NCBI GenBank assembly: GCA_012033015.1 | Contig: JAAUPS010000003.1 | Coordinates: 1-64,000, forward strand | DNA: 64,000 bases | Reading direction: 5' to 3' | Source: Phormidesmis sp. RL_2_1 | Lineage (GTDB): Bacteria; Cyanobacteriota; Cyanobacteriia; Phormidesmidales; Phormidesmidaceae | Part shown: positions 3 to 52,528 of the stretch, one piece after another | Layout of the letters: each line of letters starts with the position of its first letter | Numbering within the stretch: the first letter of the stretch is position 1 | Notes under the pieces: model-generated | What the model was told of the DNA's origin: nothing | Database searches by the model: none | What the model saw: the letters and a program-made list of their open reading frames with translations, nothing else | Position numbers and translations under genes: made by a program

Positions 3-542
3 TTCTTCCATCTCCCTCTTCTCCCTCCCCTTTTCTCCCATCTCCCTCCTTCTCCATCTCCCTCTTCTCCATCTCCCTCTTCTCCATCTCCCTCTTCTCC
101 CTCCCCCTCTTCTCCCTCTCCCTCTTCTCCATCCGCTGCGCCAGATCCCCCGATGGTCAATCCACCGTCGAGTCCATCGGCTTTAGCTAGCGATCACATT
201 CAGCCGGATAACACTTCTAGCGGACATTCAGCCCATGACCAAAACAGTCCGCAGAATCAGCATTCTGCCCACTACCAATCGTCTTCAGCAGAACCACCGT
301 ATGCTTCAACCCCACCGCCATCGCTACCGTCCGAGTCCACTGGTTTAGAGCCTGCTGATTCAAAGTCGCCTGCCCATCATTGGGAAGTGAATCAAGATCT
401 CAACAACATCAAGCGGTTTGCCCAATTTTTCAATGGTCAAATTGTTGATTTAGATGACGATCTCGCAGCGCCACCCAGTGGAATGGAGCCACAAAAGCCT
501 TCTGCCCCTGGTTCTGATCCTGGGCCAGACGTGCCTTTCTAA
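3..542 (+). CDS. C-terminal part of a protein truncated by the window start; probable DNA polymerase III subunit gamma/tau (DnaX) C-terminal tail with Ser/Pro-rich repeat linker
   Basis: Frame 3 is open from base 3 through the listed ORF at 153; reads ...PSPSSPSPSSPSPSS...SAAPDPPMVNPPSS... and ends ...NIKRFAQFFNGQIVDLDDDL..., a tail resembling cyanobacterial DnaX C-termini from memory. Confidence 0.5.
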   Translation, partial: FFHLPLLPPLFSHLPPSPSPSSPSPSSPSPSSPSPSSPSPSSPSAAPDPPMVNPPSSPSALASDHIQPDNTSSGHSAHDQNSPQNQHSAHYQSSSAEPPYASTPPPSLPSESTGLEPADSKSPAHHWEVNQDLNNIKRFAQFFNGQIVDLDDDLAAPPSGMEPQKPSAPGSDPGPDVPF

Positions 543-6029: not shown

Positions 6030-6362
6030 GAAAGTATTTTTACAGCTTAAAAAAGTAGACCGAAAAAGTAATTGGGGCTGAACGCAACAATTTAATTTGC
6101 ATATAGCGTTCTTGATGAAATCCTCTCACGAAGATTAAGCCAAGCTAAACCGAAAAAGAACGTAGGAATTGGTGACTTACCCGCAAAAGAAAGTTGATAT
6201 GTAAGTACAAATGCCGAAAAAATCTGAGAAAGTATCGTCGTTTTTGAGGCTGAATCAAACAGATCTCAAGAAAGTTACGGATTACACCTTAAAAAGCGCC
6301 AACAAACCTGAATTAAGAAACTTGAAAAGATCCCATTAGGAGGTTGGATGGAGAAGCTCTAG

Positions 6363-6443
6363 TGTATCTGTCGAGTTGCTCAGGACAGTCTCATCGGCTC
6401 TAGGCGTTATCGGACAACAGGCAACTCGACAGAGGCTATAGCA
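6363..6443. repeat. Copy of dispersed inverted-repeat family (TGTCGAGTTGC...GCAACTCGACAGAGGCTATAGCA)
   Basis: 11-bp arms TGTCGAGTTGC / GCAACTCGACA; the tail ACTCGACAGAGGCTATAGCA recurs at 36136-36155. Confidence 0.75.
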
Positions 6444-8404: not shown

Positions 8405-8770
8405 TAAACAATTTTGCGAAAGTAGAACCTTGTATGAGCGAACGTATGAGCGAACTCAACATCAAGATGCACTCTACAAAGTTTGAGAATATACCCTCAC
8501 AATATACGAATTCTATAAGTTTGCAATGTCAGATCCGTAAGATCTTGAAATACTTCATCAGGAGAATTTTGCCTGTGTAAACTCATTACTTGAGGCGGAA
8601 CTGAAATTTTGCATCATAGTCATTACGTAATGGCATTCATCCAGAAAAACTTTGTTTTAATTGTCAATTATGCGCTATGAGAAAGCGCGTAATTGACTCT
8701 GCAAACTCTTTCAGTTTTAGCGTCTTTTAATTGATGAAAGTTTAGATGATTTATCCCTGGTAATAGATTT

Positions 8771-8800
8771 ATAGCAAAGTTAAGGATGCATTCTGACGAT
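8771..8800. repeat. Partial copy of dispersed palindromic repeat
   Basis: atagcaaagttaaggatgcattctgac, compare 36051-36081. Confidence 0.55.
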
Positions 8801-8831
8801 ACATGAAGGATTTACTCTGGAGCGTTTTTAC

Positions 8832-9638
8832 GTGGTGAAGCCCGTTCAGTGGCTAAAGATTAACTGCCTAGCGGTTTGGGCAAGTTGGCACAGCGCGCTG
8901 ATGTTTTATACGTGTTTGCCAGTCTCTAAAATTTGGCCGCAAAGCTGGCCGCTGGAGTTTCGTTGGATTGCTCGCTGGGTGCCTTGGGTGGGGTTGGTGG
9001 TGGGTGGGGTGCTAGCGCTAGCAGATGGCATTCTAGCCGCTGTACACATGCCTACGTTAGTGCGTAGTGCGATCGTTGTGGCCGTGGCGATTGGGCTAAC
9101 TGGTGGGCTGCATTTAGACGGCGTGATAGATACAGCAGATGGTTTGGCGCTGCCACAGCACGCGCGCGCTAGGCGCTTGGCGGCGATGGCGGATAGCCGT
9201 ATGGGAGCGTTTGGCGGGATGGCTGCGATCGTCCTCATTTTATTAAAGGTAACGGCGATCGCCGCACTTATCAGTCACAGAGCCTTCGTACTGATTGCTG
9301 TTTCAATTTGGGGCCGTTGGGGACAGCAGTGGGCGATCGCCCGCTATCCCTATTTAAAAAAAGAGGGCAAAGGGGCTTTTCATAAGGCGGCGCTGCCTTC
9401 TGTGCGCTACACGTTGCCTAGTTTAATCGCCATGGTGATGCTCAGTTTGCTGGTGGGTAACTGTGGCATAGTGCCTTGGTCTGTCGTGTGGCGTACAATA
9501 TTGGGCGGGTTTTCTCTATCGCTGTTAACCAGTGCCTACTTTTATCAGCAGTTGGGGGGGCATACCGGAGATACCTATGGTGCAGTCGTCGAATGGACAG
9601 AAGCGCTATTGCTTTGCAGTCTCACGATAGGCCAGTAA
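8832..9638 (+). CDS. cobS: Adenosylcobinamide-GDP ribazoletransferase (cobalamin synthase)
   Basis: GGLHLDGVIDTADGL, ADSRMGAFG, GHTGDTYGAVVEWTEALLL motifs. Confidence 0.95.
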   Translation: MVKPVQWLKINCLAVWASWHSALMFYTCLPVSKIWPQSWPLEFRWIARWVPWVGLVVGGVLALADGILAAVHMPTLVRSAIVVAVAIGLTGGLHLDGVIDTADGLALPQHARARRLAAMADSRMGAFGGMAAIVLILLKVTAIAALISHRAFVLIAVSIWGRWGQQWAIARYPYLKKEGKGAFHKAALPSVRYTLPSLIAMVMLSLLVGNCGIVPWSVVWRTILGGFSLSLLTSAYFYQQLGGHTGDTYGAVVEWTEALLLCSLTIGQ

Positions 9639-14274: not shown

Positions 14275-14332
14275 TAGCCAAGTGTAAAGGCATTCACACT
14301 TGGCTAACTCGACCAAAGCTATAGCTTTGGTC
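14275..14332. repeat. Two consecutive strong palindromes
   Basis: TAGCCAAGTGT-aaaggcattc-ACACTTGGCTA (14275-14306) and perfect GACCAAAGCTATAGCTTTGGTC (14311-14332). Confidence 0.85.
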
Positions 14333-14463
14333 GCTTGGCTGAGGTACAGCGCGCTGGCGTAGCCTCGCCGTCGGCGTTATGCATCCGGGTACCGCTATAT
14401 AGCGTTTCTCACTTGGCCTGATGGTCCATTGGAGGTAAGGGTTTCATCACCGCGTTCAGCAGA

Positions 14464-19557: not shown

Positions 19558-19818
19558 ATGGCACATAAGAAGGGCACAGGAAGTACTCGTAACGGTCGCG
19601 ATTCTAACGCTCAACGGTTGGGCGTGAAAAAGTACGGTGGTGAACAGGTCATTGCAGGCAATATTCTTATTCGCCAACGGGGGACTAAGTATCACGTGGG
19701 TGAAAATGTAGGCCGTGGTGGTGATGACACGCTGTTTGCATTGATTGATGGCGTCGTGAAGTTTGAGCGCAAGGGTAAGAGTCGTAAGAAGGTCAGCGTT
19801 TATCCATTGTCTGTATAG
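19558..19818 (+). CDS. rpmA: 50S ribosomal protein L27
   Basis: [29 protein letters not shown] start at 19558; ORF-track start at 19480 is over-extended. Confidence 0.96.
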
Positions 19819-19825
19819 TTTTGAT

Positions 19826-19925
19826 GCTAGTGGTCTTTGAGGCCAGTAGTCTTTGAGGCCAGTAGTCTTTGAGGCCAGTAGTTCTTGAGTCTAGTGGTCT
19901 TTGAGGCTAGTAGTTTTTGAGTCAA
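19826..19925. repeat. About 18-bp degenerate tandem repeat downstream of rpmA
   Basis: Repeated ctagtagtctttgaggc units. Confidence 0.85.
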
Positions 19926-19953
19926 TGCTGTTGGTTGACTACTGCTGCTGTTG

Positions 19954-33040: not shown

Positions 33041-33069
33041 CAACATTACTGGCTTAACAACTGACGACA

Positions 33070-33170
33070 GCCTCTGTCGAGTGAGTTAGCACATATAGTA
33101 CTAAGGAATAGTGCTAAGGAATGCTCACCAAGACAAAGTCAGAAGGCATCTTTACTTTGCCATAACAAGA
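33070..33170. repeat. Degenerate copy of dispersed palindromic element, opposite orientation
   Basis: GCCTCTGTCGAGT...GTTAG...caaagtcagaaggcatctttactttg; reverse complement resembles 36052-36155. Confidence 0.5.
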
Positions 33171-33672: not shown

Positions 33673-33736
33673 AGTTTGTAGTTATGTAAAGACTTCTCCA
33701 TCATGAGTCATTTAGCGAATACTTGCCTCTACAAAA

Positions 33737-33825
33737 ACGCAGAAGTATAGAGCAACGCAGAAGTATAGAGCAACGCAGAAGTATAGAGCAACGCAGAAGT
33801 ATAGAGCAACGCAGAAGATAGAGCA
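33737..33825. repeat. 18-bp tandem repeat (gcagaagtatagagcaac, about 5 copies)
   Basis: Direct reading; generates artefactual ORFs in two frames. Confidence 0.92.
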
Positions 33826-33849
33826 AAGTCAGAATGCATCCGGGCACTG

Positions 33850-34443
33850 CTATATGCCTTGCCGGCAATAGGTGGTGCAGCCCCAATGCTGACTGCGTGG
33901 TAACATTGGGCCTCGCCAACCCCGCTGGCGAAGCTCATCGGCAATCAGTCGATTGATACCGCCATGGGCCACAAGCACCACCGAGGCAACGGTTTTAGAT
34001 TCATTTTCCAATAGGTTCGCGGCTGCCTGCGCCCGTTGCCGGGTGCGCCTAAACGACTCACAGCGTGAACTGTAGCCAAGTCGCCACAGGGTCAGGGCAA
34101 TCACTGACCACGTCAGCGCCGAAAACCGAAAATGGCGAGAGAAATCGACCGGGAACTCAATTTCGCGAAACTGCGGATCGACCATGGTTGGCGCACTCAC
34201 ACCCAATAGCTCGGCAGTATGCACAGCCCGCGGGCGGTTGCTGGCAAAGACCAAATCAGCGTTTGCCACGACCTGTCGAACGGCCAGCGGTGGCAAAGCC
34301 TGTTGAACGATACGGGCCGCATCATAGCGCTCTACAAACTGCCGAAACTGATGGCCTCGCACTCGCTGACGCAAAGAAACTGCAGGCGGGCCATGGCGAA
34401 TAAGCGTAATCGACTGTTGTCTGTAGGGGAGAATCAAAGTCAT
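33850..34443 (-). CDS. Histidine phosphatase family (phosphoglycerate mutase-like)
   Basis: SITLIRHGPPAVS...ASNRPRAVHTAELL...VAHGGINRLIADEL. Confidence 0.88.
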   Translation of the reverse strand: MTLILPYRQQSITLIRHGPPAVSLRQRVRGHQFRQFVERYDAARIVQQALPPLAVRQVVANADLVFASNRPRAVHTAELLGVSAPTMVDPQFREIEFPVDFSRHFRFSALTWSVIALTLWRLGYSSRCESFRRTRQRAQAAANLLENESKTVASVVLVAHGGINRLIADELRQRGWRGPMLPRSQHWGCTTYCRQGI

Positions 34444-35675: not shown

Positions 35676-35792
35676 TGTGAGTGCCGAACAGTTATTGAAT
35701 GAACCATGACTGTTGAATGAACCTTGAAAAAGGCACTATCGTGATGAGGCTTGCCTGACCTGATGGGGCTTGCCTGAGTTGTTTTGTGTATC

Positions 35793-35835
35793 CAACAGTT
35801 ATCAACAGTTATCAACAGTTATCAACAGTTATCAA
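35793..35835. repeat. 10-bp tandem repeat (acagttatca x4)
   Basis: Direct reading. Confidence 0.92.
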
Positions 35836-35837
35836 TC

Positions 35838-36053
35838 GTGGGTCAATATGGCTTTGAGCCAGACTTAAAGAACCAAGAAGACATTTGGATAAACTGGCAG
35901 GTCGCTGGCCGAACATTTGAAATCCAGGCAAAGGTGACCAGTCGCCGAAAAGAAGTTTATGTGGATGGCAAAAACGTGGTGCTCAATATGAGCGATCGCG
36001 AAAAGACACAATTTTCTGCCATTTATCCCAATGGCCTTGAAGCGTTGTTATAG
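35838..36053 (+). CDS. Conserved hypothetical protein (start within or near 35784-35850 uncertain)
   Basis: GQYGFEPDLKNQEDIWINWQVAGRTFEIQAKVTSRRKEVYVDGKNVVLNMSDREK; the upstream 35784-35837 part of the ORF is tandem repeat. Confidence 0.6.
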   Translation: MGQYGFEPDLKNQEDIWINWQVAGRTFEIQAKVTSRRKEVYVDGKNVVLNMSDREKTQFSAIYPNGLEALL

Positions 36054-36155
36054 CAAAGTAAGGATGCATTCTTACTTTGCTAGTCGAGTTAGCTGCTGCT
36101 AGTCAAGGCTTCTAGCGATTAATATTCTCCTAACTAACTCGACAGAGGCTATAGC
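36052..36155. repeat. Best-preserved copy of dispersed palindromic element
   Basis: AGCAAAGTAAG-GATGCATT-CTTACTTTGCT (36052-36081) then GTCGAGTTAG (36083-36092) ... CTAACTCGAC (36134-36143) AGAGGCTATAGCA. Confidence 0.85.
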
Positions 36156-36284
36156 AGGCGCGAGTCTTTTCCTGATGAGAATATTTTTAGAAGCTACAGA
36201 TAAAGAGGCTCTTTTTAAGATTCAGCAAGCGATTACCCAAGGTGAGAAATTGCTTTGTAGGCAAAAGCACTTGCCTGAACACCG

Positions 36285-37591
36285 CTAAATGAAGCCGCCA
36301 AAGTGTAGCAAAAGGCCGGTGGCTCCGCCTGCAAGTACCAGCCAAGCCGAATTTATCTTAAAGCGAAATACTGCGATCGCACTGACAACCGCCAGCCCAA
36401 TGGTTAACCCATCCACCAAGGCTGCTCGCCCCAGGGTATAGGTGACCCCTGCCATCAGCCCCAAAGCGCCTGCATTAACCCCATCTAAAAAACTGCTGGC
36501 CCAAGGCGATCGCCGCAATTTAGGTACCCAGGGGTTGACTAAACCCACCAGCAAAAAGGCCGGTAAAAAGATACCCACAGTGCCTGCTAGTGCGCCTGCG
36601 TGACCGGCCAGCAGGTAACCTACAAAAGTAGCCGTGGTAAAAACGGGGCCAGGGGTTATTTGGCCAATTGCGATCGCATCTAAAAGCTGCTGTGACGTTA
36701 GCCAGCCATGATGCTCCACCAAGTCTCGCTGGAGAAACGCCAGCAGCACATAGCCACTGCCATAAAGCACACAGCCAATTTTAAGAAAGAACAAAAAGAC
36801 ACTGGCCCAACCCAATGAAGTGGCCGTCGTCGTTGCCGTTATGGCAGTAGAGCCAGCCTGCGCGAGCGTGCTGACAAAAGATCCTGATATTGGTAAAAGT
36901 AACGCGCCTACCGTTGGATTTCTCGACTGCCAGTTTTGACCAGCATGACAGCCAAGCCTGCGAGCAGCAACAGTAAGATTTCATTGAGACCGGTGAAGTA
37001 AGCTGCGATCGCCAACAGCCCTACCACCGTTGTCGGTCTATCTTTCGCGGCTTTTTTACCCAGTTTCCACAGGGCTTGTAGCACCACCGCAATAATCACT
37101 GGCTTGATGCCATACAGCAGCCAGCCCATCTGGGGCACCGTTTGATAGCGTACATAGAGCGCTGCTAGCAGCCAAACCAACACCATCGCTGGCAAAATAA
37201 AACTTGCCCCCGCTACAAAAAGACCGCGCCACCTAGCCCTTTCAAAGCCAATGTGAATGGCCAACTCAGTCGAATTTGGCCCCGGCAACAAATTGGTCAC
37301 CCCAATCAAATCCAAAAGGCTTTCCCGGCTCATCCACTGCCGCCGTTTCACCACCTCATCATCCATCATGGCGATGTGAGCCGCAGGGCCACCGAAGGCC
37401 ACTGTGCCTAAACGAAAAAATACAGTTGCCAGCTCAATCAGCCGATATCGCTGTTGCTCTGGTGGTAGCACTGCATAAGCCATAGAGTCTGCAGCTACAG
37501 AGTCTGCAGCTACAGAGTCTGCAGCTACAGAGTCTGCAGCTACAGAGTCTGCCGAATGTTCTTCTTTGCTTGGATTCGCCTTTGGAGCCAT
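36285..37591 (-). pseudogene. chrA: Chromate efflux transporter (ChrA/CHR family), split into two ORFs by an apparent 1-nt deletion
   Basis: N-half ...FFRLGTVAFGGPAAHIAMM...; C-half ...FLKIGCVLYGSGYVLLAFLQRDLV; linker continues in the C-half frame as NWQSRNPTVGALLLPISGSF...TSLGWASV. Confidence 0.85.
37480..37552. repeat. 15-bp in-frame tandem repeat near the chrA N-terminus (SVAAD units)
   Basis: agagtctgcagctac repeated; SVAADSVAADSVAADSVAADS. Confidence 0.92.
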
Positions 37592-44149: not shown

Positions 44150-44824
44150 TTACTGCTTGAGTGCCAATAGTAATCCATCTCCGATCGGTACTAAGCTCAT
44201 CATTACACGCTTATCATCGCGAACTTTTTCATTTAAAGCGCGAATGCACTGGGTTCTATTATCTTGCACGTCAAGGTCGGCGACGCGGCCGTACCAAAGG
44301 GTGTTGTCTACCGCGATGAGGCCGCCGGGGCGGATGAGCTGAAGGGCGCGCTCGTAATAGTTGTCGTAATTGCTTTTATCGGCATCGATAAAGGCGAAGT
44401 CGAAGGTGCCGCTTTCACCCATGGCGATCAAGTCGTCTAAGGTCTCTAGGGCAGGGGCAATGCGTAGATCAATTTTGTGAGCGACGTTGGCTTTTTGCCA
44501 GTAAGACAGTGCGATCGCCGTAAACGCCTCACTGATATCACAAGCGACCACCCGCCCTGCTGCTGGCAAAGCCATTGCTACACTCAAGGTACTGTAGCCC
44601 GTGAATACACCCACTTCCAAGGTTTTTCGAGCGCCCATGAGCTGTACTAATAAAGCCATGAACTGCCCTTGTTCCGGCGAAATCTGCATCCTTGCTTGGG
44701 GATGCTGCATCGTTTCATGGCGTAGCTCAGCGAGTACGTCAGCTTCTCGTAACGTCGCCTTCAGCAAATAATCGTACAGCCGATCATCTAAACCAATGGT
44801 TTGATTGGACATGTTCTGAGGCAA
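44150..44824 (-). CDS. Class I SAM-dependent O-methyltransferase (caffeoyl-CoA type)
   Basis: TLEVGVFTGYSTLSVAMALP, FDFAFIDADKSNYDNYYERAL, DNTLWYGRV. Confidence 0.92.
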   Translation of the reverse strand: MPQNMSNQTIGLDDRLYDYLLKATLREADVLAELRHETMQHPQARMQISPEQGQFMALLVQLMGARKTLEVGVFTGYSTLSVAMALPAAGRVVACDISEAFTAIALSYWQKANVAHKIDLRIAPALETLDDLIAMGESGTFDFAFIDADKSNYDNYYERALQLIRPGGLIAVDNTLWYGRVADLDVQDNRTQCIRALNEKVRDDKRVMMSLVPIGDGLLLALKQ

Positions 44825-44834
44825 GATATCTTAC

Positions 44835-44920
44835 TTGCGTGAGATATTTGGCTTGCGTGAGATATTTGGCTTGCGTGAGATATTTGGCTTGCGTGAGATA
44901 TTTGGCTTGCGTGAGATATG
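44835..44920. repeat. 18-bp tandem repeat (ttgcgtgagatatttggc, about 5 copies)
   Basis: Direct reading; yields artefactual EIFGLR ORFs. Confidence 0.93.
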
Positions 44921-44929
44921 TTGGTGTGA

Positions 44930-45520
44930 TTATGCTGCACACATGACCTGGCGCATGGTTTTCATATTTCCGGGCAAATCATGGCGGATGGCCTGTTCAA
45001 TCAAGAAGCTAGGTACCGGGATCAAAGGGGTTGCTTTGACAGAATAGATAATGAGCGTACCTTGTCCGTAGTCTTCTAAGGTTAAATCTGCTGAAAAGTC
45101 TGAAAAGGTGCCGCGCTCAAAGCGAAATTGAATCTTTTGGTGAAGCGTTTCAATCACCTGTAGATAAATTTCGACCTGGGCTGAAAACATTAAAAAGGCT
45201 TTGCGAGCGACCTGATACAGACGGCGGGTCATCGGATGCGTTTTAGACTGCCGTTTGACCTCTAGCACTTGGCTTTGAACAATATCAGGAAAGTAGTGAA
45301 CCCATTTGCTGTAGTCAGTGAGCTTTTGCCAAGTTTGCGATCGCACCATCGGCACATACATGGTGGCTGTCACTGCGGCAGAGCCCGAAACTGTTGCTGT
45401 TGTCGAAATCAAAACATCGCCCTGCAAAAGGGACTTCTCCTGCTGAGACGTCATGCTCGTTTGCGTAGATATCAGATCAACAGACTCTATAGAGACACTC
45501 AGGGAAGCAACCATAGACAA
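44930..45520 (-). CDS. SRPBCC / START-like (polyketide cyclase-coenzyme Q-binding) family protein
   Basis: WQKLTDYSKWVHYFPDIVQSQVLEV; ...SYLIEQAIRHDLPGNMKTMRQ-like C-terminus. Confidence 0.75.
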   Translation of the reverse strand: MSMVASLSVSIESVDLISTQTSMTSQQEKSLLQGDVLISTTATVSGSAAVTATMYVPMVRSQTWQKLTDYSKWVHYFPDIVQSQVLEVKRQSKTHPMTRRLYQVARKAFLMFSAQVEIYLQVIETLHQKIQFRFERGTFSDFSADLTLEDYGQGTLIIYSVKATPLIPVPSFLIEQAIRHDLPGNMKTMRQVMCAA

Positions 45521-52444: not shown

Positions 52445-52528
52445 GATGAATATGACTTAAGTTGAGTATGACTTAAGTTGAGTATGACTTAAGTTGAGTA
52501 TGACTTGAGTTGAGTATGACTGAAGTAC
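52445..52528. repeat. About 16-bp tandem repeat (gagtatgacttaagtt)
   Basis: Direct reading. Confidence 0.88.

Follow-up and report, generated by a model that had tools for sequence, protein, structure and literature searches.

A two-hairpin miniature element inserted at TA sites in Phormidesmis sp. RL_2_1 and related cyanobacteria

A 64,000-nt stretch of the Phormidesmis sp. RL_2_1 genome (contig JAAUPS010000003.1, positions 1 to 64,000; hereafter the window) contains a composite palindrome that a first-pass annotation had taken for the best copy of a dispersed REP/MITE-like family, and the locus raises the question of what kind of element this is and what could have moved it. The palindrome, a second hairpin, a AGAGGCTATAGC tail and TATAGC at the left edge were all found as described. 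The element itself is real, and its exact limits, given earlier as 36051-36156, shifted to 36049-36153 when copies were aligned. This family A copy, on the forward strand, gave the top covariance-model score in the sampled genome (115.4 bits) and spans 105 nt including a TA at both ends, for a net insert of 103 nt. Aligned copies define a left tip, TATAGC (36049-36054), and a right tip, GCTATA (36148-36153). Hairpin P1 (36053-36080) has 12 bp, consisting of GC and an 8-nt variable stem, and a conserved cap, GGATGCATTC. Hairpin P2 is formed by a 5′ arm, GTCGAGTTAG (36083-36092), and a 3′ arm, CTAACTCGAC (36134-36143), giving 10 bp that enclose 41 nt (36093-36133); in the alignment this interior carries short conserved motifs, AAGGYTTY and TGTCCTAA in most families. 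The consensus reads TATAGC, 8-nt stem, GATGCATT, complementary 8-nt stem, GC plus two bases, the 10-bp stem around 41 nt, four bases and GCTATA. The two ends of the 105-nt form have just TATAGC in common.

Rather than occupying an intergenic location, as had been supposed, the window copy interrupts a conserved hypothetical gene. The upstream part (35784-36053, forward strand) ends at a premature TAG inside the element tip, and the downstream part (36154-36288, forward strand), which holds the last 44 codons, is cut off by the element and is in frame once 103 nt are taken out. Removal of 36051-36153 leaves a single TA and an open frame to 36288; since 103 nt is not a multiple of three, the restored frame itself checks the insert length. 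The joined translation shares 56-58% identity with intact homologues in four relatives, with no gap across the junction in the three homologue alignments viewed in full. A Pfam search gave no name for the protein. Three further copies are nested in other repeats with known uninterrupted versions, and a single TA was present at all three empty sites. The first-pass annotation had left the ends and target-site duplication to be defined: the element is 105 nt long, and the TA (36049-36050 and 36152-36153 in the window copy) is duplicated at four independent empty sites, namely the window copy and the three nested insertions. Thus, 103 nt plus a TA duplication have been inserted at dispersed TA sites. 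In a pooled set of 55 sites, the base after the right TA was G in 69% and never C, and the left side showed no matching bias; among young copies in genome G004 the target preference appeared closer to symmetric, as judged by eye.

The annotation's view of a dispersed family was borne out in the Phormidesmis genome (5.56 Mb in 436 contigs; the window has 57 occurrences of the HIP1 sequence GCGATCGC). Our census of this genome combined 771 kb of sequence with pattern counts, and covariance-model copy numbers per genome are lower bounds. A DNA search gave at least 70 matches, and at least 40 copies were scored (the best 40 of 321 candidates). The pattern TATAGCN{3,14}GATGCAT had at least 247 exact matches compared with one for the reversed pattern, which excludes chance, and the spacing in these ends was nearly always 8. 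Different 8-nt stems (AAAGTAAG, GTGTGCCG, CTGTACCG, GGTACCCG, GGTATGCG and others) define several families of identical architecture, and complete copies lacking nested repeats were mostly exactly 105 nt. The many further copies lie at unrelated sites, excluding both a palindrome without other copies genome-wide and a repeat confined to homologous intergenic positions.

Related genomes carried the element with their own dominant stems (AAGGTGCG in G002, AAAGCGCG in G003 and GTTACCCG in G004). Among 65 genomes of the family, exact 23-nt ends numbered 115 in G000, 23 to 24 each in G002, G003 and G004, and one each in G001, G006 and G011, with none in the remainder and none in the control. The covariance model matched 38 of 390 Cyanobacteriia genomes, covering 15 genera and six families, and these relatives were mostly 103-107 nt with TATAGC/GCTATA-like tips even where the stems were unrelated. 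A plasmid search for the element found nothing, and viral contigs gave a single match without the rest of the element. More than 20 near-identical 105-nt copies of one sequence lie at unrelated sites in G004, and copies of family D in G000 differ by ∼1 to 3 bases; such near-identical dispersed copies therefore indicate recent movement and amplification. In family D, the copies at three of five sites had inserted into the terminal TA of another element. A near-identical family A copy is also present in a metagenome-assembled genome labelled Limnothrix sp. RL_2_0 (locus L058, 2487-2591), which points either to transfer or to a single lineage that bears two names.

Several variant forms accompany the 105-nt element. 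Of the related pieces reported earlier in the window, that at 6363-6443 proved to be an 81-nt, P2-only form (6360-6440, reverse strand; 48.6 bits) with a near-20-nt terminal inverted repeat (TIR), and that at 33070-33170 a decayed copy (33066-33164, reverse strand; 25.1 bits), and the piece at 8771-8800 belongs to a weak left-half fragment (8770-8857, forward strand; 16.8 bits, E 0.34), with the left end itself at 8770-8791. The reverse strand also holds a P1-only piece (from 33802 or 33822 to 33854) and an internally deleted copy with a nested 25-nt repeat, abutting another fragment (14320-14399). In 81-nt forms, 16-19 of 20 positions of the TIR match, and the 105-nt form equals the 81-nt form plus 24 nt of P1. 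P1-only copies of ∼36 nt exist (L085, L298), and in a 130-nt form the P1 cap holds a nested repeat of 25 nt. Most family C copies (L064, L100, L109, L112 and others; window 14340-14380) carry this 25-27-nt repeat, AACGCCGACGGCGAGGCTACGCCAACG, in the same place, which gives the 130-nt form, and it seems to have co-amplified. In family A, the beginning of P2 is exchanged for tandem units of TCTTGGTGAGCATTCCTTAGCGCCGTACGACGACGCAGGGTCTCACCGCT, which vary in number (L071, L078, L096, L116), and a GGCGTAGCCTCTCCGAGGAGAA-type cyanobacterial palindrome is inserted within the P2 interior at L016 and L026. Numerous short arrays of 13- to 18-nt tandem units are spread across the window (3-148, 19804-19931, 33736-33825, 44806-44937, 52447-52526 and others).

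The constancy of the architecture was examined in a structure alignment of 29 copies from several families. Across the two helices, 18 of 22 predicted base pairs showed compensatory changes on both sides, and 95.1% of alignment cells were paired. Double-change cells numbered 119, compared with 32.6 in shuffles and 14-25 with one arm slid, so covariation far exceeded the controls, and single sequences folded better than shuffled ones (z −2.8 to −4.6). P1 varied independently of P2, and the interior motifs were kept across copies with unrelated stems. Hairpin shape and not terminal sequence is conserved, which is unusual for a MITE-like element. The stems contained 36 G.T against 15 A.C, a G.T excess inflated by the choice of copies, and in one family of G003 the consensus itself is an A.C mismatch; comparing G.T with A.C as a test for an RNA strand was suggestive, but we rejected it as biased and contradicted by this family-level mismatch. 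A search of Rfam 15 gave nothing above the gathering threshold, and the matches at E 0.12 or worse were chance hits to the P1 hairpin.

By reading sequence in assemblies of which several are fragmented or partly incomplete, we searched for a host transposon. Although a matching IS or RAYT-type transposase had been envisaged, the sequence read yielded none that shares the element's ends. In 771 kb of the Phormidesmis genome these ends did not bound any transposase gene, and none of the 22 exact left ends read (of 23) in the 10-contig G002 assembly bounds a transposon; these ends belonged to 105-nt-type, variant, truncated or P1-only copies. An autonomous copy was also sought between left and right ends separated by 180-4000 nt, at orphan ends and in the ORFs there, among IS630 fragments at contig ends of G004, at another 20 left ends from G002 and G004, and beside those Y1 and DDE_3 transposases of the genus for which loci were retrieved; none was found. 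Within the genus, TA-targeting IS630 elements start with TATAGCCATCC or TATAGCAAGCAGC; they share TATAGC...GCTATA tips and the TA with the element, but the subterminal sequence differs and no common TIR was found beyond the six-base TATAGC tip. None of the multi-copy IS630-type elements read in G004 has TATAGC ends, some ending in CTAG, and G003 has IS630 fragments only; both genomes carry the element. A 1.19-kb IS630 is present in several copies in G002 (L201, L206, L211; TIR TATAGCCATCC, TA target), one of which adjoins a hairpin element end, and G006 has a 962-bp IS630 element (L187, L207; TIR TATAGCAAGCAGC). Y1 genes, IS200/IS605-type and RAYT-like types among them, occur in all seven genomes of the genus, and none of those found is flanked by the element as ends. 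RAYT-like tyrosine transposases were identified in G004 (L173) and G003 (L177) without flanking element copies, and no RAYT-like gene was seen in G002 or G000, both of which have many copies.

We give an even chance to the reading that this is a non-autonomous, TA-inserting miniature element moved in trans by an IS630/Tc1-mariner-type transposase that reads shape. As in MITEs, the element is short, has no gene, is present in many dispersed copies and has a target-site duplication; the four empty sites, the many unrelated sites and the recent amplification uphold the MITE-like, non-autonomous part of the first-pass proposal. TA insertion with TA duplication is that of IS630/Tc1-mariner elements, and insertion of this type is our best guess, although unproven. 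We infer that a TA-specific transposase, most likely of the IS630/Tc1-mariner kind, would be supplied in trans, cut at the TATA tips and recognise the palindromic arms by their shape and position more than by sequence. Due to such shape-based recognition, stems could drift into new subfamilies with mobility kept, and an inserted copy would then be free to decay. The element has no coding role, and its effect on the host is insertional. The stem covariation, the common architecture across 15 genera, the near-20-nt TIR of the 81-nt form and the TATAGC...GCTATA tips of IS630 copies in the genus also speak for this reading. Against it count the lack, in the sequence read, of a transposase gene bounded by the element's ends, the IS630 elements that share the six-base tip alone or lack it, the asymmetric target preference in the 55 pooled sites and the ends of the 105-nt form, which, sharing only TATAGC, appear unlike a normal TIR. 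Only tentatively do we extend this reading to a class of mobile DNA that is phylum-wide and is recognised through its folded shape, in which the transposase is not encoded by elements with these ends and any DNA would move that has TATA tips and a pair of hairpins in fixed register.

The TA duplication would also suit ordinary MITEs, in which each stem subfamily matches the TIRs of a particular IS630-type element that has since been lost or was not assembled, and P2 covariation reflects co-evolving identical binding sites. The near-perfect 20-nt TIR of the 81-nt forms and the TATAGC tips of genus IS630 elements are consistent with this, and multi-copy IS may have been lost from the fragmented assemblies. 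We nevertheless consider it rather unlikely, as P1, a hairpin within one end that does not repeat the other end, varies independently of P2, interior motifs are conserved across unrelated stems, and the left ends that were read in G002, an assembly of 10 contigs, had no matching IS. The asymmetric ends with their different hairpins, the G.T at the P1 cap conserved in 28 of 29 copies, the asymmetric target preference and the Y1 genes in seven of seven genomes would suit a single-stranded DNA element moved by a hairpin-reading, IS200/IS605-like HUH (Y1) transposase, with the TA being a cleavage-site match and not a staggered-cut duplication. This too seems unlikely: none of the Y1 genes found has the element's ends, the two hairpins are unlike one another, the left tip and P1 lie too close together to leave room for a guide sequence, and P2-only copies resemble plain inverted repeats.

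The strong two-hairpin fold, its covariation and some G.T excess in the stems could also reflect a structured RNA or regulatory element whose transcript is kept by selection. We regard this as improbable given copies inside a gene, at unrelated dispersed sites and nested in one another, many of them decayed, together with the inflated G.T excess, the A.C consensus mismatch in G003 and the lack of an Rfam match. Least probable is the REP half of the first-pass proposal, a REP/REPIN element mobilised by a RAYT. It would fit a palindromic element of ∼100 nt and the RAYT-like Y1 proteins of G004 and G003, but a GTAG/CGTC tag is lacking from the aligned hairpins, copies of the element do not flank the RAYT-like genes, no such gene was seen in the copy-rich G002 and G000, and the TA is duplicated.

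Bacterial MITEs are normally defined by terminal sequence in common with a parent transposon. Correia elements (NEMIS) of Neisseria, which are ∼104-158 bp with a TA duplication and termini beginning TATAG, have one conserved TIR sequence of ∼26 bp; they are likewise dispersed MITEs, whereas our element keeps just six terminal bases constant and holds an extra hairpin, P1, in one end. Among cyanobacteria, the Nezha MITE and the small dispersed repeats described by Elhai in Nostoc are likewise very small repeats with some nesting, and the likeness lies in those two features. RUP, the repeat unit of pneumococcus, is ∼107 bp, folded and present in >100 copies, and its movement in trans by an IS630 element has been proposed (PMC3049150). 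RUP with IS630-Spn1 thus resembles our element in size, copy number, fold and proposed IS630-type mobilisation; however, the TIRs of RUP resemble those of IS630-Spn1, whereas for our element the likeness to any IS found stops at TATAGC, and its subfamilies have different stems on one fold. Excision of ISY100 leaves TATATA (PMC2170065), and the cyanobacterial IS630-Tc1-mariner elements share with ours the TA target, its duplication and a TA beside the tips, but they are autonomous with 24-bp TIRs bound by sequence, whereas our element has neither a gene nor a matching TIR. REPs are defined by a GTAG or CGTC tag at one palindrome end (PMC3733652); REP/REPIN-RAYT systems are also small, palindromic and dispersed, in contrast to our element in having the tag and an associated RAYT. 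In the openly available literature, which describes RUP, Correia, BOX, REP and Nezha, we found no TATAGC two-hairpin family, and the papers listed by a text search for the motif letters were all on unrelated subjects. The element is an unnamed variant among MITE-like elements, possibly described earlier under another name.

In at least six cyanobacterial families, both hairpin sequences are free to change if pairing, spacing and tips are kept. If shape is what is recognised, the rule would be unusual among TA-inserting elements and would explain how many diverging subfamilies can be served by a single mobilising enzyme; were the folded-shape class real, stems would diversify into species-specific subfamilies at constant length and fold. 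The identity of the enzyme is a testable question in species with young copies, and the covariance model is ready to annotate hundreds of copies in cyanobacterial genomes, whose genes they break.
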